DNA from: a virus
Strand: one strand, 5' to 3'
DNA length: 64,000 bases
IMG/VR virus record: IMGVR_UViG_3300003691_000002
Location: 1 to 64,000 of that record
The notes under the pieces are model-generated. The model saw only the letters and a program-made list of their open reading frames with translations, was not told where the DNA came from and did not search any database. The position numbers and the translations under genes are program-made. This document shows positions 43,116-51,535 of this stretch, piece by piece. Position 1 is the stretch's first letter. Each line of letters begins with the position of its first letter.

Positions 43116-43559
43116 TTATAAAATTTTTAAATAAACACCAGGATTTTCTTTGTCGTAAGAATAATAATTTCCTTTCAACAAAAGTGGAAAAGGTAAAAAA
43201 TAATCCATATTATCATCTTCAATAATGTTATGTGCTACTAATAAATCTGCAATTATCTGCACAGCATTATGAAAATCAAATTTATGTCTAGTTCCACGTA
43301 CAAAATGGATACCTATTTTTAATGGGTATTTTTCCTTTTCCACTTGAGCTTTAAATTCCTCAATGTATTCTAAAAATAAATTAGGTCTAGTTATATATTC
43401 TTTAACTGTTTTTTTACTTGCAGAAAAAGATTGTATACCTAAACTTCTTAAATATTTAGTTACTGTTTTGGAATGAAAAACTCCTCTTTTAGTTTTAATT
43501 TTACTGTTTTTTAAACTTGGAACATTTCCAGGTATAAATACTTTACCATGTGATTTCAT
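43116..43559 (-). CDS. RusA-like Holliday-junction resolvase (about 147 aa)
   Basis: 'IPGNVPSLKNSKIKTKRG' near the start is the N-terminal motif of RusA-like endonucleases. The acidic active-site cluster is in 'RHKFDFHNAVQIIADLLVAH' and 'IIEDDNMDYFLPFP', matching the D-x-D-N...D-x-L and E-D-D-N pattern of the family. It would cut four-way or branched DNA during recombination and before packaging. I start it at ATG 43559 ('MKSHGKVFIPGN'). A longer frame from 43640 would add 27 residues without family similarity and lies inside the upstream gene. It overlaps that gene by 17 nt. Confidence 0.8.
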   Translation of the reverse strand: MKSHGKVFIPGNVPSLKNSKIKTKRGVFHSKTVTKYLRSLGIQSFSASKKTVKEYITRPNLFLEYIEEFKAQVEKEKYPLKIGIHFVRGTRHKFDFHNAVQIIADLLVAHNIIEDDNMDYFLPFPLLLKGNYYSYDKENPGVYLKIL

Positions 43560-44283
43560 TTTTATTGTGTTCACTAAGTTTTTGATTAATTTCGTCAAGG
43601 ACAGAAGCAGACCATACTTTTGCTCCTTTTTTATAACCAACTTCTTTAATTAAATCATCAACAATAAAAACATCATGTTTTTCCGTATCAATACAATGTT
43701 TAAATTCATTAGCAATATCTTCTCCTAAAAATAAAAAACATAAATATGCTTTTTTATTTAAAACAGATAAAATAAATTCAGTAAAATTTTTCCAAATATT
43801 CTTATGTTTGAATCTTTCCTTTCTACTTAATGTTTGAAAAGAAGGCAATAAAAAAACGCCTTGTTTCATATAAGAATTCATGGTAGGACTAAAATTTAAA
43901 TTTAAAGTACCAAGAGCATTTTCTATAGAAGTATTCCAATAATGAGAAAAAAAAGGTAATCCAAATTCAGTAAGAGAATTAATTCCACATCCTCCTACTA
44001 AAGCATGAGGATACACTCCATTAGGTATAATTACAACTTTTATACGAGAAAATTCAGTAAGTCTAAAATTTTCAAATAAATTTTCTTTTTTTGGAAAAAC
44101 AATTTCTTCGTAATCATTTTTATAAACTTCATTTAAAAAAATCATCAAATTATATAAATAAGTTGAAGACATAAATTTTTGAGATTTTTTTAAAACTTTA
44201 TACCAAGATTTTCCAAATAATTTTTTATAATCAATATTTAATACATAAGGAACTTTTACTTTCTTTATATTATTTAAATCCAT
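43543..44283 (-). CDS. Degenerate uracil-DNA-glycosylase-like protein (246 aa)
   Basis: The fold signature of family 1 uracil-DNA glycosylases is visible: 'RIKVVIIPNGVYPHALVGGCGI' stands where the water-activating GQDPYP loop should be, 'MKQGVFLLPSFQTLS' matches the 'QGVLLLN..LT' segment, 'WKNFTEFILSVLNKK' the following helix, and 'VWSASVLDEINQKL' the C-terminal HPSP...F..IN..L region. The catalytic Asp of GQDPYP and the His of HPSP are both replaced. It is therefore probably not an active uracil glycosylase, unless chemistry has shifted. It may bind DNA, uracil bases or a partner enzyme. Its place is between the amidoligase island and the resolvase. Confidence 0.62.
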   Translation of the reverse strand: MDLNNIKKVKVPYVLNIDYKKLFGKSWYKVLKKSQKFMSSTYLYNLMIFLNEVYKNDYEEIVFPKKENLFENFRLTEFSRIKVVIIPNGVYPHALVGGCGINSLTEFGLPFFSHYWNTSIENALGTLNLNFSPTMNSYMKQGVFLLPSFQTLSRKERFKHKNIWKNFTEFILSVLNKKAYLCFLFLGEDIANEFKHCIDTEKHDVFIVDDLIKEVGYKKGAKVWSASVLDEINQKLSEHNKNEITW

Positions 44284-44285
44284 TT

Positions 44286-45992
44286 TTAAAAATTATTTTC
44301 TAAATCTCTTAGTACTTCTTCTTCTTCTACTTGTTGTATTATTTCTGCTACTGCTGGTACTTCTTCATTATGATTAACAAATCTTATATTTGCAGCTTGA
44401 AGGTTACTACGATTAACCAAAGAATAAAAAGCATTTTTAAATTCTTTTTTTGAATTATTTAAAATATATCTAAAATCTACAGAAACAGGAGGACTATACA
44501 AAAGATTAGATTCATTAAAAAGAACAGGAGCTTCACCTTCTAATACTTTATTTTTAAAGTATTGTTGTCTTTTTCTCCAATAATCTTTTATAACTTGTGC
44601 AAGTTTATTATCTTGAATTTCACTAATAATTATATAATTTAAATTTAATTTAGTAATAAGTCTTAAATCATTTTTAAGTAATTTATCAACATTATTATTA
44701 ACAAATTTTATAATAGCAATACAAGTAAATAAATAAAAGATTACTTTATTAACATCAAAAGTAGGAGTATGAATTCTAAATTCTACAGTTTTTTTATTTC
44801 CAAAAACTATTGGAATTAAATTAACCCAATGATACCTACTTCTAATATTCCATTTAGCATTTCCATTAGGGTCGCTTGGATGATTTATAACTTCATCCAA
44901 GTTACTTTTATAATGACTAAATGGAATTCCTCCTGATAATTGAGAAAATAAAACATCAAATCCTACTTCAGGCTTACTAAGTAATGAATAATAAAATGTA
45001 TCTCTATCTAATTCTTTAGTATAATCTTTTCTTTTTACTCTATATTTTTTACTTTTATATAAAGGAAAAGCAGAATAAAAATCATCTTGAATTAAATAAA
45101 GAACTTTATATAACCCTAATAAATGTTTTGGAGTTCTTTTTAAACCTGCTACATGTAAATGTAAAGAACATTCATAATCTTCTTTAGTATATCTTTTAAG
45201 TTTTTTTAAACTTTTAATTAAACTAAAAACACCTTTAACACCTGAATAAGGAATAGTAGCATATTCTAAACCTTGTATACTTCCATCTCTTAAAGGAATT
45301 AATCCTAATTTTTTACAATCTCTTTCAGGAACTTTTCCTCTTACAGTTTCAAATTCAAAACCAAAACTATAATTTTCTTCAAAAAAATATCTAAATTGTT
45401 TTAAAAAACTATCTATTTCTATATCTACATTACATTTATTATAAATTTCTATAGCAGTATTTAAATAATTTTTTGAATCATATAACAAGCCTCTTTTTTC
45501 TTCTTGATTACATTCAGGTAATGAAATAAATTTATATGCTCTTGTACGCTTAACATGTTCATATATTTCAGTTTCTAAATTATATTTATAATAACGTGAG
45601 TTATTAAAAATATTATCATTTAAAACATTAAAAAATCCCTCAGAAGATTCTACTAATAAAGGAGCTATTTTATCTAAAGGAGATAAACTAAAATGTCCAA
45701 AAATAAGTTTATCTTTTTCAATACCTATTACTCCTTTAACAAATGTGTTATCTTTTTTGATTATATATCTTCCAATTCTATGATCAAAAATTATTCTTTC
45801 TGTTTCAGCCCTATACCATTTTTTAACTTCTGGGATATAATATACATCTCCAGAATTTTTAATATGTATATTACCTTTTTTATAATATTTACCATACATA
45901 AAACGGCAATTTATAATAGGTAATTTTTCTTGTGAAACAGTTGTGACTAATTTATTTTTTATATATTTACTACTCATAATAAAATTAATCAT
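44286..45992 (-). CDS. Amidoligase (Amidoligase_2 type) with long N-terminal extension (568 aa)
   Basis: The glutamine-synthetase-like amidoligase core spans about residues 210-420: 'SFGFEFETVRGKVPE' (GxExE metal ligands), 'LRDGSIQGLEYATIP' (D-x-S and E), 'CSLHLHVAGL' (HxH), and 'KTVEFRIHTPTF' (E-F-R). These are the motifs of the Amidoligase_2 family (PF12224), predicted to join a carboxylate and an amine using ATP. The first 200 residues are beta-rich and unassigned. The C-terminus ends in an acidic helix (EIIQQVEEEEVLRDLE). It overlaps the class II amidotransferase gene by 8 nt and is the last of six amide-chemistry genes. The substrate is unknown. Confidence 0.78.
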   Translation of the reverse strand: MINFIMSSKYIKNKLVTTVSQEKLPIINCRFMYGKYYKKGNIHIKNSGDVYYIPEVKKWYRAETERIIFDHRIGRYIIKKDNTFVKGVIGIEKDKLIFGHFSLSPLDKIAPLLVESSEGFFNVLNDNIFNNSRYYKYNLETEIYEHVKRTRAYKFISLPECNQEEKRGLLYDSKNYLNTAIEIYNKCNVDIEIDSFLKQFRYFFEENYSFGFEFETVRGKVPERDCKKLGLIPLRDGSIQGLEYATIPYSGVKGVFSLIKSLKKLKRYTKEDYECSLHLHVAGLKRTPKHLLGLYKVLYLIQDDFYSAFPLYKSKKYRVKRKDYTKELDRDTFYYSLLSKPEVGFDVLFSQLSGGIPFSHYKSNLDEVINHPSDPNGNAKWNIRSRYHWVNLIPIVFGNKKTVEFRIHTPTFDVNKVIFYLFTCIAIIKFVNNNVDKLLKNDLRLITKLNLNYIIISEIQDNKLAQVIKDYWRKRQQYFKNKVLEGEAPVLFNESNLLYSPPVSVDFRYILNNSKKEFKNAFYSLVNRSNLQAANIRFVNHNEEVPAVAEIIQQVEEEEVLRDLENNF

Positions 45993-47805
45993 TTTCTTCT
46001 AAATCGATTGATAAAACAGAAACTAAATTTTCAATATAATCAGAAGTAAAATCTATTATATGTTGGCCAATTGCATTTTGTGATAATTTTTCATCTTCTT
46101 CTAACAAATCTAAGACTGCTTTATTATCTAAAATAGAATTTTCAACTAATTGCAAAATTTCTTCTGAGATATTATCTACTGTTTCTTTTTCTTCTTCTTT
46201 TTCTTCTTTATATGCTTCTAGAATTTCATCTACAATTTCTGTAGAGGATTTTGCTACAATATTACTAAAAACATTAGTTTTAATTGTTTCATAATATGTA
46301 CAAAATCCTTTATTAATAGTATAAATTCTAGAAGCTCCTAAAGGAGCAATTATTCCTGTAAAAACTTGACCATTTAATATTAAAGGTTGTTTATTTGTTA
46401 AAATACTATTTACAGGGTGAACAGAAGCAAAAGAAAGCCTGGAAGGATTTAACATATTTGGATTATTATCTTCAATTGTTTTTACAGCTTCCCAATCAAA
46501 AGTAGATCTTAATTCTATGCCTTTATATATTGGTTTAATAAAAGCATCTATATTAGTAAAGTCTTTATCTTTAAAAGGTATAAAAGTAGTTTTAGAAGGT
46601 TTAATTACAAAATCTTGTGCTTCTAAACAGAAATTAGAGTTTTTTAGATTTTTTAGTCTCCTTCTAGCTGCTTTTAAATCATCTTGAGATAGTAAATAAA
46701 AACCACATCCTTTTATCCAAGTATATAATCCTGTAACTAAATGACCATTTCTTTTATATCTAAAATTATTAAAATAAATATTCTTTCCAGAAACATTTAT
46801 TTCTTCATAAAAAAGATCATAAGAAGAAGTAGCCACGTCTGGTAAAACATACTGTCTTTTTTCAGGAAGAAAGTTATAATCTCTTTTTTTAGCCCCTCCT
46901 CTTGCGTAGTTAGATTTATTATTTTCTTTTGGTTTACTAGAAACATAATATTGATTGTGCTTTCTAGTTATTACTGTTTTTTCTGCTGTTTTTAAGCAAC
47001 CATTTTTAACTTTGTAAACAGTATTAAAATCTAAGTTAATAATGTTTTTACCACCAATAATTTTTAAACCTTCTTCTTGAGAAGAAAGATAAAGACTATT
47101 TTTATTTTGTTGCCAAGCATATAAAGGTCTTTCTTCTGTTCCTTCTAAAGCATTAAAAGTTTTTTTAGATTTACCTTTATAAAAATAAATAGTATTAGGT
47201 TCATCAACTTTAAACCAAATTAAAGCTGCAGCCCCTTGATATTGTTCTAATACTGAGTAATCATCAGTTTTAGATAAAATTTCTAATAAAATTTCACTAT
47301 CTATTTTTGGTACAACAACAGTAGAATTTGCTTTTTTTACTTCTTTATCGGTCTCTACTTCAAACTTATTAGCTAATGTAATATCATTGTGTAATGTACC
47401 ATTATGAACACCTACAAAAATTGTTTTTTTGTTTTTATTTTTAAAACCAAAAGGATGAGCATTTTCTTCAGTATGAGCACCCCTAGTAGCTTGTCTAGTA
47501 TGGCCTATTACTACAGGATATTTATAAGGTTTTTTATAACCATTTGCTAAAACAAAATCTCTATAGAGTTTATTTTCTCCAGTTCCTTTTTTAATAGCAT
47601 TATCTGATACAACTCCACAAGAATGTATTCCTCTTGCTTGGTTTAGTATCCCTAATAAATCAAATTTTAATTTATCAAAGTCTTTTGGAGTTTTACCTGC
47701 CCAAGCAAAAATACCACAAAATAAAATATCATGTTTATTTTTAAAAATAATATTTAATCCTGTAGAAATAGTTAATAATATTAATATTAAATTAAGTAAA
47801 TTCAT
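45985..47805 (-). CDS. Class II (Ntn) glutamine-amidotransferase-like protein with hydrophobic leader (606 aa)
   Basis: Residues 30-270 are an Ntn-type glutaminase domain: 'CGIFAWAGK' supplies the nucleophilic Cys (C30), 'RGIHSCGVVS', 'VIGHTRQATRGAHTEENAHPF' (GHTR-A), 'GVHNGTLHN' (HNG) and 'DSEILLEIL' follow the family order. In active members Cys is the first residue; here it follows a 29-residue hydrophobic leader (MNLLNLILILLTISTG...), and no in-frame Met precedes it. Either the leader is removed, as propeptides are in some PurF and glutamate synthases, or the frame start is different. Residues 300-520 form an unassigned domain and the last 80 are acidic. It would release ammonia from glutamine, or act as a peptidase, for the neighbouring ligases. 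It overlaps both neighbours by 4-8 nt. Confidence 0.8.
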   Translation of the reverse strand: MNLLNLILILLTISTGLNIIFKNKHDILFCGIFAWAGKTPKDFDKLKFDLLGILNQARGIHSCGVVSDNAIKKGTGENKLYRDFVLANGYKKPYKYPVVIGHTRQATRGAHTEENAHPFGFKNKNKKTIFVGVHNGTLHNDITLANKFEVETDKEVKKANSTVVVPKIDSEILLEILSKTDDYSVLEQYQGAAALIWFKVDEPNTIYFYKGKSKKTFNALEGTEERPLYAWQQNKNSLYLSSQEEGLKIIGGKNIINLDFNTVYKVKNGCLKTAEKTVITRKHNQYYVSSKPKENNKSNYARGGAKKRDYNFLPEKRQYVLPDVATSSYDLFYEEINVSGKNIYFNNFRYKRNGHLVTGLYTWIKGCGFYLLSQDDLKAARRRLKNLKNSNFCLEAQDFVIKPSKTTFIPFKDKDFTNIDAFIKPIYKGIELRSTFDWEAVKTIEDNNPNMLNPSRLSFASVHPVNSILTNKQPLILNGQVFTGIIAPLGASRIYTINKGFCTYYETIKTNVFSNIVAKSSTEIVDEILEAYKEEKEEEKETVDNISEEILQLVENSILDNKAVLDLLEEDEKLSQNAIGQHIIDFTSDYIENLVSVLSIDLEEND

Positions 47806-48608
47806 TTAATTAAAATATTTGATTCTTCTATAATAGATTTTCTTAGTTCTAATATTTCTTCATTAGACATTTCATGAGCATTTAATATAGCGTTCTCATG
47901 TTTATATTGTAGTTCTTTAAAATAAGGAAAACTAGCTAATTCTATAGCTGCTAAAGTATTAACAAAAATAGTTGTTTGTAATTCTTTTGTTTTTAGCCAA
48001 AAATTAGAAAGAGTTCTGTATTCTAAACCATAAAATTTATCTCTATAATTGCCTAATTGCCCGTAATATTGTTTTCTTTCTTTATCTGGGTCAATAACTA
48101 AAGCTAATAACCCTAAAGTAATATCTAAAGCTTTCACTAATCTCATATTAGCTAAATCATTAGGAGAAGTATATCCTATATGAATATGTCCCCCACACAT
48201 TCTAGTGGTGTAATCTTCAGAAAATTGTAATTGATTTTGCTCAAAAGTATATACATTAAAATCAGGATCACAACCAAACATACGAGCTTGTCTACTAGTT
48301 AACTCTTCCTTTTTAAAAGTATGTGTAGTTGAAAAATCTAATTTATGATTTTTATTATTTAATTTTAGATAAATATTTAAATAATCTAAAACTAATTGTA
48401 TATTATTTAGAAATTCTTTTTCAGAAACGCATGGAGGAATATTAAATTCTACCATTACATTGTCTTCTTGAACAAAATATCCTTCTTTATTTAAAACAGG
48501 TTTTGGATTGTTTTTAGTTCCTCCAATTAGCCCTTCTGCAGAAATAATTTGTGATCCATCATTCACAAACAATTCTGGGTCAGCTCCTATTGTTACATTT
48601 TTATACAT
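47802..48608 (-). CDS. COOH-NH2 ligase, phage type 2 (268 aa)
   Basis: 'TIGADPELFVNDG' at the N-terminus (D-x-E-x-F metal/ATP ligands), 'EDNVMVEFNIPP' (VEFN), 'RMCGGHIHIGY' (GGHxH) and 'GLEYRTLSNFWL' (EYR-LSNFW) are the diagnostic motifs of the phage COOH.NH2 ligase type 2 family (PF14395), a glutamine-synthetase-fold amidoligase. It is predicted to form an amide bond with ATP on an unidentified carboxylate. Length matches the family. It overlaps the class I amidotransferase by 8 nt and the class II one by 4 nt, so all are made together. Confidence 0.88.
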   Translation of the reverse strand: MYKNVTIGADPELFVNDGSQIISAEGLIGGTKNNPKPVLNKEGYFVQEDNVMVEFNIPPCVSEKEFLNNIQLVLDYLNIYLKLNNKNHKLDFSTTHTFKKEELTSRQARMFGCDPDFNVYTFEQNQLQFSEDYTTRMCGGHIHIGYTSPNDLANMRLVKALDITLGLLALVIDPDKERKQYYGQLGNYRDKFYGLEYRTLSNFWLKTKELQTTIFVNTLAAIELASFPYFKELQYKHENAILNAHEMSNEEILELRKSIIEESNILIK

Positions 48609-49299
48609 ATAAATAATCTAAAATAATATTTCTTATAAAATCTAAAGTTTCTTGAGGTACTCCTTCAAATTCAGGATGTCCTTGTATAGCTAATCCATTT
48701 ATTTTAGGATAATAAACTATTTCTGGTTCAATAAAATTATTTGCTAATTCTATCTCTTCATTTTTTCCATTTAAATAAGTATCGCTTTCAAAAAATTTTG
48801 ACCAAGCAATAAGCTTATAATCATCTTCAGGTAAATTAAAAGGATACATCATTTGATGGTGTGTAGAAGTCATATCAAAACTTTTAAACCTATTATTGCC
48901 CCGCATTACCTCTATGAAATGATTTTTAGTATGATTTGTTACGTGTTGAATTAATTTACCATCAGCACGAACAGTCAAATATTGGGCTCCTCTACAAATA
49001 CCTAATTTTTTTATTTTATAAGGTAAATAATTAAATAATAGACCACATCTTAAATCTCTTTCTTCATTAACAAATGTATGTCTACCATTTTTTTCTCCAT
49101 ATAAATTAGGATTTACATCTTCCCCGCCAGTATAAATAAGCAAATCTTTATCTAAATTTATTTTTATTTTACTGGTATTTAAATCATCAAGAAATTTTTT
49201 TATATTATTTACTTCTATAAATTCAATTTCTTCATTAAAAACAAAACTTAAAAATTTTTTATAATTTTTGTTTAATAGAGATTCACTGATAATTTTCAT
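48601..49299 (-). CDS. Class I glutamine amidotransferase / gamma-glutamyl hydrolase-like protein (232 aa)
   Basis: A flavodoxin-like hydrolase: 'LLIYTGGEDVNPNLYGEKNG' (oxyanion and substrate loop of the peptidase C26 group), 'KLGICRGAQYLTV' with nucleophile C102, 'STHHQMMYPF', and 'NGLAIQGHPEFEGV' with the catalytic His-x-Glu pair. The family removes the gamma-amide of glutamine or cuts gamma-glutamyl bonds; the 'TGGEDVNP' loop favours the gamma-glutamyl hydrolase side. It lies between the ATP-grasp and COOH-NH2 ligase genes and overlaps both, so a shared pathway is likely. Confidence 0.87.
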   Translation of the reverse strand: MKIISESLLNKNYKKFLSFVFNEEIEFIEVNNIKKFLDDLNTSKIKINLDKDLLIYTGGEDVNPNLYGEKNGRHTFVNEERDLRCGLLFNYLPYKIKKLGICRGAQYLTVRADGKLIQHVTNHTKNHFIEVMRGNNRFKSFDMTSTHHQMMYPFNLPEDDYKLIAWSKFFESDTYLNGKNEEIELANNFIEPEIVYYPKINGLAIQGHPEFEGVPQETLDFIRNIILDYLYV

Positions 49300-50089
49300 T
49301 TATTTTTTTATTTATTATTTTTGGTAATATTTCTTTATATTTTTCAGCTGTAATTTCTCCAAAAGAAGGTGCTGAATTAATTTCAATAATAACAAAAGCT
49401 GGAAATTTATTATTAGATTGAACTCTTACATCAACAGCCCCAAAATCTAGACCTACTGCATTAAGAGCTTTTACAGACTCATTTACAATATAATCCCAAT
49501 TATCAGGTTTGTCAAAAAGTTCATTTTTTTCTAATATCCAAACACAATTTAAATTATTTTTAAACCATTTATGTTCATCTGGAGTATTATTTTTAATCAT
49601 TTTTCTACAAGAATAAAAAACACCATCTTTTGTAACATGAAGTCTATATTCTTTATTAAAATTATAAAAACGCTCAAAAATAAAATTATTTAATTCTCCA
49701 GAATGCTTATTTAAAAAAGAATTTAAATCTGTAGCATTATCAATTTTTTCATTACCATTATTCCTACTTCCAAATCTTCTTTTAGCTATAATAGGAAAAG
49801 GCATATTTTCAAAATTTACTATTTCTTTAGTAATGCAATTAAAAAAATTGTAATTTTTATAAAAAGTAAACCATATAGGAGTTCTTACATCTGCTTCTAA
49901 AAATTTATTTTTCATTTTTAATTTATCAGATGAGTTTTTTACTGCTTCTATTGTGTTTACCTCAATATTTGCATTTGATATAGTAGTTGAACCAAATCTA
50001 ACAACTACTGTTTTTTCAACTTTTGGTAAAATTCTTCTCAATACATTATGAGAAGGATGTCTACTTCTAATTCGTGGTCTATACTTCAT
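49283..50089 (-). CDS. ATP-grasp ligase, RimK-like (268 aa)
   Basis: The ATP-grasp elements are visible: 'FPIIAKRRFGSRNNGNEKI' (first Lys plus glycine-rich loop), 'FIFERFYNFNKEYRLHV' (E-x-F...E-Y-R), and the metal-binding 'DFGAVDVRV' and 'FVIIEINSAPSF' (E-x-N). The best family match is the RimK/LysX type, which adds amino acids to carboxyl groups. The N-terminal 'PKVEKTVVVRFGSTT' is typical of phage versions. It overlaps the gamma-glutamylcyclotransferase-like gene by 11 nt and the class I amidotransferase gene by 17 nt. The acceptor could be a protein terminus, a peptidoglycan peptide or a small metabolite. Confidence 0.85.
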   Translation of the reverse strand: MKYRPRIRSRHPSHNVLRRILPKVEKTVVVRFGSTTISNANIEVNTIEAVKNSSDKLKMKNKFLEADVRTPIWFTFYKNYNFFNCITKEIVNFENMPFPIIAKRRFGSRNNGNEKIDNATDLNSFLNKHSGELNNFIFERFYNFNKEYRLHVTKDGVFYSCRKMIKNNTPDEHKWFKNNLNCVWILEKNELFDKPDNWDYIVNESVKALNAVGLDFGAVDVRVQSNNKFPAFVIIEINSAPSFGEITAEKYKEILPKIINKKINENYQ

Positions 50090-50504
50090 CTACAATTTTA
50101 TGTACTTTATTAATCATACTTTGATCATTCCAATCTCCAGAATCAACTATAGGTAAATTTTTTAAATCTATTCTATTACCTGCCAGGTAAACAAAAGCAT
50201 TTCCCCAAGGAGTAGGAATAATATCTTTATTATAAAGATTATTTTTTCCTTCCCCAATATAGCCTTCAAGATTATCTAATTGTTTTGCTGTATTTTCATT
50301 ATCTATTTCAAAAACATCCATTGTAATAGAAGTTGCACTTCTATTTGTTTCTATTATAGCAGGAAATGCTCCTAAACTAAACATTGTATAAATAGGTTCT
50401 GTTCTAAAAGTTCCTAAATGTTTTGAATCTTTTAAGAAAGTTTTATAATTATTATGTCCTAATCTTAAAGTTCCATAAACTGCTACTAATACTTTATTTT
50501 TCAT
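50079..50504 (-). CDS. Gamma-glutamylcyclotransferase-like protein (141 aa)
   Basis: 'VAVYGTLRLGHNNYKTFL' is the substrate-binding YGTL-x-G-x-x-N motif of the gamma-glutamylcyclotransferase/AIG2 fold. 'LDNLEGYIGEG' contains the catalytic-type Glu (L-D-x-x-E-G), and 'WGNAFVYLAG' the following strand. The family cyclises and releases gamma-glutamyl groups as 5-oxoproline. It is the first gene of the six-enzyme amide-chemistry run and follows the primase by 2 nt. It could release or recycle a gamma-linked product made by the ligases. Confidence 0.87.
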   Translation of the reverse strand: MKNKVLVAVYGTLRLGHNNYKTFLKDSKHLGTFRTEPIYTMFSLGAFPAIIETNRSATSITMDVFEIDNENTAKQLDNLEGYIGEGKNNLYNKDIIPTPWGNAFVYLAGNRIDLKNLPIVDSGDWNDQSMINKVHKIVDEV

Positions 50505-50506
50505 AT

Positions 50507-51535
50507 TTAAAAAGGTAAATAAATTTCTTTTTTATATATCTCTATACTTTTCTTTCTTCCCCAAACTTTTATTAAATCACTAAAATCTTTACATTGATAT
50601 CTATCAGGTATAGTAATTGATTTTAGTCCAAATTTTGTAGCTAATTCTTTAGCTTTAATTTGTCCAACATTTTCTTCTTTATCATAATCATTGTCATACC
50701 AAATATAAATATGTTTAAATCTTTCTTTTAACTGATCTATAATATGTTGTTTGGGTAATACTGTTTCTGATTGTAATGCTACAGCAGGAATTCTTAAATT
50801 TTCTACAATTGCCATTACATCTTTTAATGATTTTGTAATAATTAATTCTTTATGTCTTAAAGGTAATTGTTCCCATCCTTGCCAAACAGAATAATTATGA
50901 TTATTTAAAAATTTATATTTTTTATTATAAGGTTGATATATTTTTAAAGATGTTTTATTATCTTTTTTCTCAACATAAGAATAAGCATATTTATCTGCTT
51001 TTACAGCAGAACCTTCTTTATTATAAAAAATATAACTAATAGGGGAAACTCTGTATTTTTTTAATGTATATAAAGAAATTCCAAATTTTTCCCAAAACAT
51101 TATATCATGTTCTTTCCATTGTCTTGTTTTTTTTGCTAAGATTTTTCCAGAACTTTCAGATAATAATTTTTCTCTGCTTTTTGTATTTTTTTCTTGTTTA
51201 TAATTAGAAGCTTCAATTTCTTTATAATTAAAATGCCATTTTAAATTAAAATCAACAATAATTTTATTTAATGCTTCATAATAAGATAAATTAAACAATA
51301 GTTTAACAAATTCTATACAATCACCTTTATACTTAAAATCATTAAACCATATTTCTCCTGTTTTTTTATTTAAAAAAAATCTCAACGAAGGAACATTTTC
51401 TTCTCTAAATAAAGATTTATAGCTTTTAGATAAAGCAATATCTTGTTGCATATAATATCTATATATATCTATATCTTGTATATAAGAAAAAATATGTTCC
51501 TTAGAAGGATCTTTTTTATTTAAATTAATAGTCAT
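50507..51535 (-). CDS. DnaG-like primase with TOPRIM domain (342 aa)
   Basis: The first 100 residues resemble a primase zinc-binding module without its cysteines ('FREENVPSLRFFLNKKTGEIWFNDFKYKGDCIEFVKLLF', here split across a PSxxF motif and D-x-x-x-F-V), as in other crAss-like primases. The centre is the RNA-polymerase domain. The TOPRIM fold has 'ELIITKSLKDVMAIVEN' and 'IYIWYDNDYDKE' (DxD). The usual TOPRIM Glu before the 'KD' is replaced by Lys. It would make RNA primers with the DnaB helicase. The ATG overlaps the stop of a small membrane-protein gene. Confidence 0.75.
   Translation of the reverse strand: MTINLNKKDPSKEHIFSYIQDIDIYRYYMQQDIALSKSYKSLFREENVPSLRFFLNKKTGEIWFNDFKYKGDCIEFVKLLFNLSYYEALNKIIVDFNLKWHFNYKEIEASNYKQEKNTKSREKLLSESSGKILAKKTRQWKEHDIMFWEKFGISLYTLKKYRVSPISYIFYNKEGSAVKADKYAYSYVEKKDNKTSLKIYQPYNKKYKFLNNHNYSVWQGWEQLPLRHKELIITKSLKDVMAIVENLRIPAVALQSETVLPKQHIIDQLKERFKHIYIWYDNDYDKEENVGQIKAKELATKFGLKSITIPDRYQCKDFSDLIKVWGRKKSIEIYKKEIYLPF

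Follow-up and report, generated by a model that had tools for sequence, protein, structure and literature searches.

A six-gene cassette of amide-bond enzymes within a replication operon

What do phages make, and on which target, with a set of six amide-bond enzymes encoded beside their replication genes? The question is raised by the amidoligase cassette found in the first 64,000 nucleotides (nt) of IMG/VR virus record IMGVR_UViG_3300003691_000002, a stretch referred to here as the window and belonging to a source record of 88,690 bases. Such cassettes represent an ATP-costly six-enzyme pathway in many phages of Bacteroidota, Proteobacteria and Cyanobacteria, and since at least 2009 no product has been assigned to it. 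The cassette itself was known before, its genes being already annotated in phi14:2 (NC_021806) and UFV-P2 (PMC3890496); added in this work are co-occurrence counts, the exchange of the cassette for another module in a single genomic slot, a hydrophobic leader on the class II amidotransferase and an argument from published restriction digests. The reading tentatively preferred is that of an ATP-driven, glutamine-fed system for tagging peptides or proteins, with gamma-glutamyl editing.

The cassette comprises six co-directional open reading frames at positions 44286-50504 on the minus strand. From the primase side to the uracil-DNA glycosylase (UDG) side these encode GGACT (the gamma-glutamylcyclotransferase-like protein, also GGCT), a RimK-like ATP-grasp ligase, a C26-type class I amidotransferase (GAT-I), a PF14395 ligase, a class II amidotransferase (GAT-II) and Amidoligase_2 (Table 1). 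A preliminary description had already given the positions, the single direction and the tight spacing of the genes, their six families and a crAss-like phage as their bearer, and all of this was borne out. Successive genes overlap by 11, 17, 8, 4 (ATGA) and 8 nt, Pfam, PHROG and NCBIfam profile matches agree with the family assignments, and the nearest relative of the window is Cellulophaga phage phi14:2, a member of the Steigviridae (Crassvirales), with a virion protein that matches phi14:2 at 49.6% over 100% and a primase closest to those of phi14:2 and cr108_1. The term ‘island’ used there did not hold. The primase ends 2 nt from the GGCT gene and the amidoligase gene lies 2 nt from the start of the UDG gene, so the six genes belong to a longer run that continues upstream into primase and downstream into UDG, and the cassette is part of a replication operon. 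The UDG-like gene is followed by RusA-like and PD-(D/E)XK genes. A PADLOC search for known defence proteins gave no match.

Co-conservation of the core enzymes

A PF14395 profile scan of IMG/VR yielded 80 loci, 41 of which were left after dereplication and the requirement of full flanks. ATP-grasp, GAT-II and Amidoligase_2 were each present in 41/41, all on one strand, with GGCT and GAT-I each in 32/41 and at least one of the two in 39/41. Loci seeded with the ATP-grasp ligase carried GAT-II in 42/42 cases, Amidoligase_2 in 41/42 and PF14395 in 38/42. With both seed sets pooled, a count that takes in overlapping fetches of the same contigs, 137 loci contained all four core enzymes in eight gene orders, with zero mixed-strand arrangements. 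Conservation through eight gene orders indicates that the genes act together, as had been supposed in the preliminary description, and the genes were not scattered in relatives. Of 62 dereplicated loci, 53 have a replication or repair gene at most 5 kb away; the strand is shared in 53/53, and the median distance is 403 bp.

Beyond crAss-like phages, carriers include a cyanobacterial phage, Zobellviridae, Grimontviridae, Bruynoghevirus and Kuravirus-type phages. Among 84,980 bacterial and archaeal genomes, a PF14395 scan found eight loci, all on metagenome-bin contigs shorter than 50 kb. Within the sensitivity of a pattern scan, the four core enzymes therefore look like a cassette essentially restricted to viruses.

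The two gamma-glutamyl removers, GGCT and GAT-I, were considered as mutually exclusive and interchangeable. This was dropped as a rule, with both present in the ATP-grasp-seeded loci L160, L163, L166 and L172 (survey loci are numbered with the prefix L). In the PF14395-seeded branch of gammaproteobacterial type, GGCT was found in 12 loci and GAT-I in 13, both together in none; the alternation corresponds to six changes of each on the tree, and a sign test was not significant. Both genes are duplicated in a cassette subgroup (L016, L026, L028, L032, L040, L044, L056 and L084).

Exchange of modules between primase and UDG

Of the 44 loci in which both primase and UDG are seen, 37 have the cassette between them. 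This slot holds the amidoligase cassette in phi14:2, cr108_1 and the window; crAss001, which belongs to the phi14:2 subfamily, has five other genes there, gp75-gp79, between primase gp80 and UDG gp74. Of these, gp76 encodes an E1/ThiF protein (8e-16) and gp77 a JAB-like protease with an HSHx7SxxD motif (4.9e-4, below the Pfam cut-off). No library match was obtained for gp78 or gp79; gp79 is probably ubiquitin-like, judging by its N-terminal pattern, and gp78 probably E2-like by gene position. The same E1/JAB set occupies the slot of cr111_1, and a homologous set lies beside UDG and primase in Flavobacterium phage FpV4.

The two cassettes were found together in none of the genomes tested. A tblastn search with the E1 protein matched 78 records, phi14:2 and cr108_1 not among them, and among Crassvirales records the matches to the ATP-grasp ligase were limited to those two phages. 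ThiF (PF00899) is absent from the window record and from 14 long cassette-bearing records, PF14395 is absent from crAss001, cr111_1, cr116_1 and FpV4, and a search run with a control detected no homologues of the crAss001 E1, JAB, ubiquitin-like or E2-like proteins in cassette loci. The slot thus swaps whole modules, two of which make and break amide linkages. That a ubiquitin-like cassette can take its place points towards a protein or peptide as the target, a link that is supported but unproven. The swap makes covalent tagging of proteins or peptides a concrete hypothesis, with cultured phages at hand in the pair phi14:2 and crAss001 as well as in PaP3-like and Kuravirus phages.

The E1/JAB cassette (L174 4583-9805 in crAss001) is annotated merely as thiamine biosynthesis and metalloprotease proteins, and is widespread in gut Steigviridae and Flavobacterium Fpv phages.

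Active sites and folds of the six enzymes

A cassette of the Iyer 2009 type consists of PF14395 and/or Amidoligase_2 with an ATP-grasp protein and a class II amidotransferase in one direction. The window carries such a set, and alignments of 42-63 homologues per enzyme showed active-site residues to align and catalytic residues to be intact in every enzyme. In GGACT, whose closest relatives in the PDB are YtfP and GGACT, E80 is almost invariant among 45 homologues. The ATP-grasp ligase retains invariant E147, R149, H151, K163, D220 and E236 (n = 62), and its profile matches in the PDB are an alpha-L-glutamate ligase (1.7e-10), cyanophycin synthase and RimK; membership of the R2K clade was rejected (PF18299, E 0.094, 13 bits against a cut-off of 26.2) in favour of a RimK-like protein.

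The triad Cys102, His208 and Glu210 of GAT-I is invariant (n = 42). Its closest NCBIfam models, gamma-glutamyl-CDP-amidate hydrolase and PuuD, both score far below cut-off, and its closest PDB structures are Lin1909, SpuA and PuuD. Two enzymes handling ammonia or glutamyl groups had been proposed; it is improbable that GAT-I and GAT-II both supply ammonia, gamma-glutamyl hydrolases being the closest relatives of GAT-I. Residues Cys30, R58, H102, R104, N135, G136 and D169 of GAT-II are invariant or almost so (n = 60).

A sequence search of the PDB returned no relative of the PF14395 ligase. Its AlphaFold2 model (predicted local distance difference test, pLDDT, 94.9; predicted template modelling score 0.92) was matched by Foldseek to YbdK (2.4e-5), plant glutamate-cysteine ligase (GCL), GshF and glutamine synthetases (GS), and residues D10, E12, D49, E54, H141, R189, E196 and R198 are invariant (n = 62). 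The model of Amidoligase_2 (pLDDT 87.4) gave weak Foldseek matches to YbdK-like proteins, PafA, GCL and GS, none with E below 0.001; its invariant residues are E213, E215, D236, S238, E243, H278, H280, Y387, E404 and R406 (n = 63). The RimK/alpha-glutamate ligase, PuuD/SpuA, YtfP/GGACT and YbdK/GCL/GS relationships support ligation and gamma-glutamyl removal as the likely chemistry, as had been suggested at the outset.

Table 1. Features of the cassette, its flanks and related loci (positions in the window, except where a survey locus is named)
Feature	Position	Strand	Evidence or sequence
DNA primase (Toprim), slot flank	50507..51535	-	phrog_12622 2.4e-70
GGACT/YtfP-family gamma-glutamylcyclotransferase-like	50079..50504	-	PF06094 1.9e-16; phrog_2520; catalytic Glu80 in LEGY
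RimK-like ATP-grasp ligase	49283..50089	-	phrog_2599 1.3e-33; TIGR00768 rimK_fam 4.5e-9, below cut-off
Class I amidotransferase fold (GAT-I), C26/PuuD-like, probable gamma-glutamyl hydrolase	48601..49299	-	PF07722 (Peptidase_C26) 8.6e-12
PF14395 COOH-NH2 ligase, glutamine synthetase/GCS fold	47802..48608	-	PF14395 6.6e-15; phrog_3815 2e-67
Class II Ntn (N-terminal nucleophile) glutamine amidotransferase (GAT-II)	45985..47805	-	GATase_6 PF13522 2.1e-10; glmS/purF N-terminal domain matches
GAT-II hydrophobic leader, 29 residues before Cys30	47719..47805	-	MNLLNLILILLTISTGLNIIFKNKHDILF, followed by CGIF
Amidoligase_2 with ~200-aa N-terminal extension	44286..45992	-	PF12224 1.3e-5; phrog_2443 5.6e-27
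Uracil-DNA glycosylase-like (UDG), other slot flank	43543..44283	-	NCBIfam UDG 5.6e-20, below cut-off; position of annotated UDG in phi14:2 and crAss001
CFG-type tandem pairs	L004 5908-7838; L003 9347-11482; L005 8000-9986; L007 7228-8978; L002 10353-12254		

A hydrophobic leader ahead of the catalytic cysteine of GAT-II

The catalytic Cys30 of the window GAT-II is preceded by a hydrophobic leader. The codon before Cys30 is TTT, so no start codon yields a free N-terminal cysteine in this protein. In the branch that includes the window, 35 dereplicated loci divide into 16 with a leader-bearing GAT-II, the window among them, and 19 with the Met-Cys form (17 and 20 before removal of the partial loci L043 and L074, which lie outside the tree); none of the 24 scored loci of the other, gammaproteobacterial, branch has a leader. 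The leader varies even between close relatives, L015 having it and L011 being of the Met-Cys form. Of 178 GAT-II proteins, 47 contain a segment with a mean Kyte-Doolittle value of at least 2.0, in every case at the N-terminus; in the other five families the number of such proteins is 0-2 per family. The hydrophobic stretch is followed by charged residues, a pattern suggestive of an N-out/C-in membrane anchor. GltB and PurF carry propeptides ahead of the catalytic cysteine, and by analogy the leader-bearing GAT-II would need cleavage before its own.

Proposed function and its alternatives

The intact enzymes, the co-conservation and the slot exchange are computed observations; for the reaction order, the glutamyl donor and the target of the pathway we infer the following. 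The six genes would constitute one virus-specific amide-bond pathway, produced in the early or replicative phase. GAT-II would free ammonia from glutamine, and the three ATP-dependent ligases (the RimK-like ATP-grasp enzyme and two GS-fold amidoligases) would convert carboxylates to acyl phosphates and couple them to ammonia or amino acids, glutamate most likely. The C26 hydrolase and GGACT would strip gamma-glutamyl groups, whether to edit, to deprotect or to de-conjugate. As target, a host or phage peptide or protein is the most likely, which would make the cassette a small tag and de-tag system serving counter-defence or the takeover of the host. For the window and some members of its branch, the leader would put GAT-II at the membrane, and removal of the leader would expose the cysteine nucleophile. 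A more specific and rather doubtful version holds that Steigviridae alternate two non-homologous conjugation systems in one slot, one of E1/E2/JAB type and one of amidoligases attaching amino-acid or short-peptide tags, with the gamma-glutamyl hydrolases de-conjugating and with partial membrane tethering through a cleavable GAT-II leader. If true, viruses would possess a protein-tagging system made of amidoligases, with its ammonia-supplying subunit partly membrane-tethered.

Mass spectrometry of the Kuravirus SU10 detected the ATP-grasp protein, GAT-II and a YtfP/UPF0131 protein (PMC4281155), the last read here as the cassette GGACT, so these three proteins are expressed. Several points weigh against tagging of proteins or peptides. 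The SU10 preparation was a concentrated lysate, in which non-virion proteins may be included. No tag protein was recognised among the cassette genes, and the genomic context of the cassette differs outside crAss-like phages. The slot of cr116_1 (L176 8608-12764) holds genes annotated as rIIA/rIIB and three Suoliviridae have no such module there, so the slot may be a general exchange site and not the seat of one function. The membrane leader of GAT-II is compatible with an envelope target too.

A small-molecule product, either a gamma-glutamyl or amidated metabolite or a feed into nitrogen metabolism that aids replication or neutralises a defence signal, is a doubtful though arguable alternative. 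PuuD/SpuA-like hydrolases and GGACT work on small gamma-glutamyl amides, Leptolyngbya phage Lbo-JY46 has PncB and phosphoribosyl pyrophosphate (PRPP) synthetase genes beside its cassette, and the study of phage-ZRK32 read such genes as auxiliary metabolic genes of nitrogen metabolism (PMC10945688). However, unlike ordinary auxiliary metabolic genes, the PF14395 cassette had no counterpart in cells in the genome scan, and three ligases with two gamma-glutamyl hydrolases exceed what glutamate supply needs.

Amidation or aminoacylation of the peptidoglycan stem or of surface peptides, blocking superinfection, is unlikely. MurT-GatD performs glutamine-fed amidation of lipid-linked wall precursors and provides a precedent for the chemistry, known cassette hosts are mostly diderm, and the GAT-II leader would suit such a target. 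The phiEco32 cassette was also proposed to modify the cell wall or envelope against superinfection (Iyer et al. 2009, through PMC10580990). Nevertheless, a MurT-GatD type of peptidoglycan amidation was rejected for the window, where no Mur-ligase domain was found among the six proteins or the tested neighbours. No scored locus of the gammaproteobacterial branch has the leader, close relatives of leader-bearing loci lack it too, and the cassette sits within early or replication gene runs.

Hypermodification of phage DNA bases with amino acids or amides against restriction, which the preliminary description had listed among the targets, is improbable. The position in a replication operon would agree with it, as would the finding that Gordonclarkvirinae withstand restriction-modification although no modification pathway is known in them (PMC11990801), a group with at least one carrier, KarlSchell_Bas89. 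Against this, DNA of phages tf, P2-10 and Delta, all with PF14395 matches, is digestible: that of phage tf is cut by RsaI, HpaI, EcoRV, SmaI and HaeIII and serves as template for Taq and Klenow (PMC3517423), that of LUZ24-like phages including P2-10 by EcoRI, HindIII, Sau3A and AluI (PMC3634792), and that of phage Delta by BamHI (PMC8540360). The window thymidylate synthase is of the ordinary type, over the NCBIfam cut-off. With carrier DNA cut by many enzymes and normally copied, whole-genome base replacement by the cassette is unlikely; rare or site-specific modification would still be compatible with these data. That unrelated accessory genes merely pile up in one exchange slot, as the differing slot contents within Steigviridae might suggest, is very improbable and is contradicted by the co-occurrence counts, the four core enzymes remaining linked through eight gene orders, also in many phage groups that carry them elsewhere than in this slot.

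Comparison with known systems

The closest counterpart of the window cassette is g037-g041 of phi14:2, in the same slot, with the order GGCT, ATP-grasp, PF14395, GAT-II, amidoligase and a leader on GAT-II; it differs in having no C26/GAT-I gene, and its five enzymes share 32-51% protein identity with those of the window. The phiEco32/LUZ24-like cassettes of Kuravirus and Bruynoghevirus (PMC3890496) likewise combine PF14395, Amidoligase_2, GAT-II, ATP-grasp and GGCT co-directionally near primase or helicase. They differ from the window in having no GAT-I, in a GAT-II that begins right at the catalytic cysteine and in gene order, which is PF14395 ligase, phrog_4877, amidoligase, GAT-II, ATP-grasp, GGCT, preceded by a tandem pair upstream.

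The crAss001 gp75-gp79 cassette (PRTRC-like) shares the slot and the logic of conjugation and isopeptide cleavage with the window cassette, but zero homologous proteins, having E1/E2/JAB in place of amidoligases and gamma-glutamyl hydrolases. The window cassette itself was not classed as a ubiquitin-like (PRTRC-like) system, for which E1/ThiF and JAB would be expected. The PuuA-PuuD gamma-glutamyl pathway also pairs a GS-fold ligase with a C26 gamma-glutamyl hydrolase; the window lacks its oxidoreductases and has an additional ATP-grasp ligase, GAT-II and GGACT. In butirosin synthesis, gamma-glutamyl protection by BtrJ and BtrG relies on an ATP-grasp ligase and a GGACT-type remover, a pairing shared by the window cassette, which has other ligases added and no acyl carrier protein.

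The family phrog_4877, of ~190 aa, lies between PF14395 and Amidoligase_2 in LUZ24/Kuravirus-type cassettes (L004 8648-9226, L003 12796-13410, L005 10815-11420). It was not found between the window cassette genes and had no match in the 88.7-kb record, in a search that lacked a positive control. The idea that it is fused to the N-terminal part of crAss-like phage amidoligases was considered and rejected, profile comparison showing no similarity. Fast-evolving tandem pairs of ~300 aa also occur near the PF14395 ligase, most members with an N-terminal CFG-like motif (Table 1). As a universal component these pairs were rejected: a profile found 22 proteins, including cr108_1, and none in the window.

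Genes related to PncB, PRPP synthetase or NAMPT were seen in just one or two survey loci: those of Lbo-JY46 adjoin the cassette (L090 1-3340), and in Salmonella phage 7-11 PRPP synthetase and NAMPT lie ~5 kb upstream of it (L005 2005-4568).

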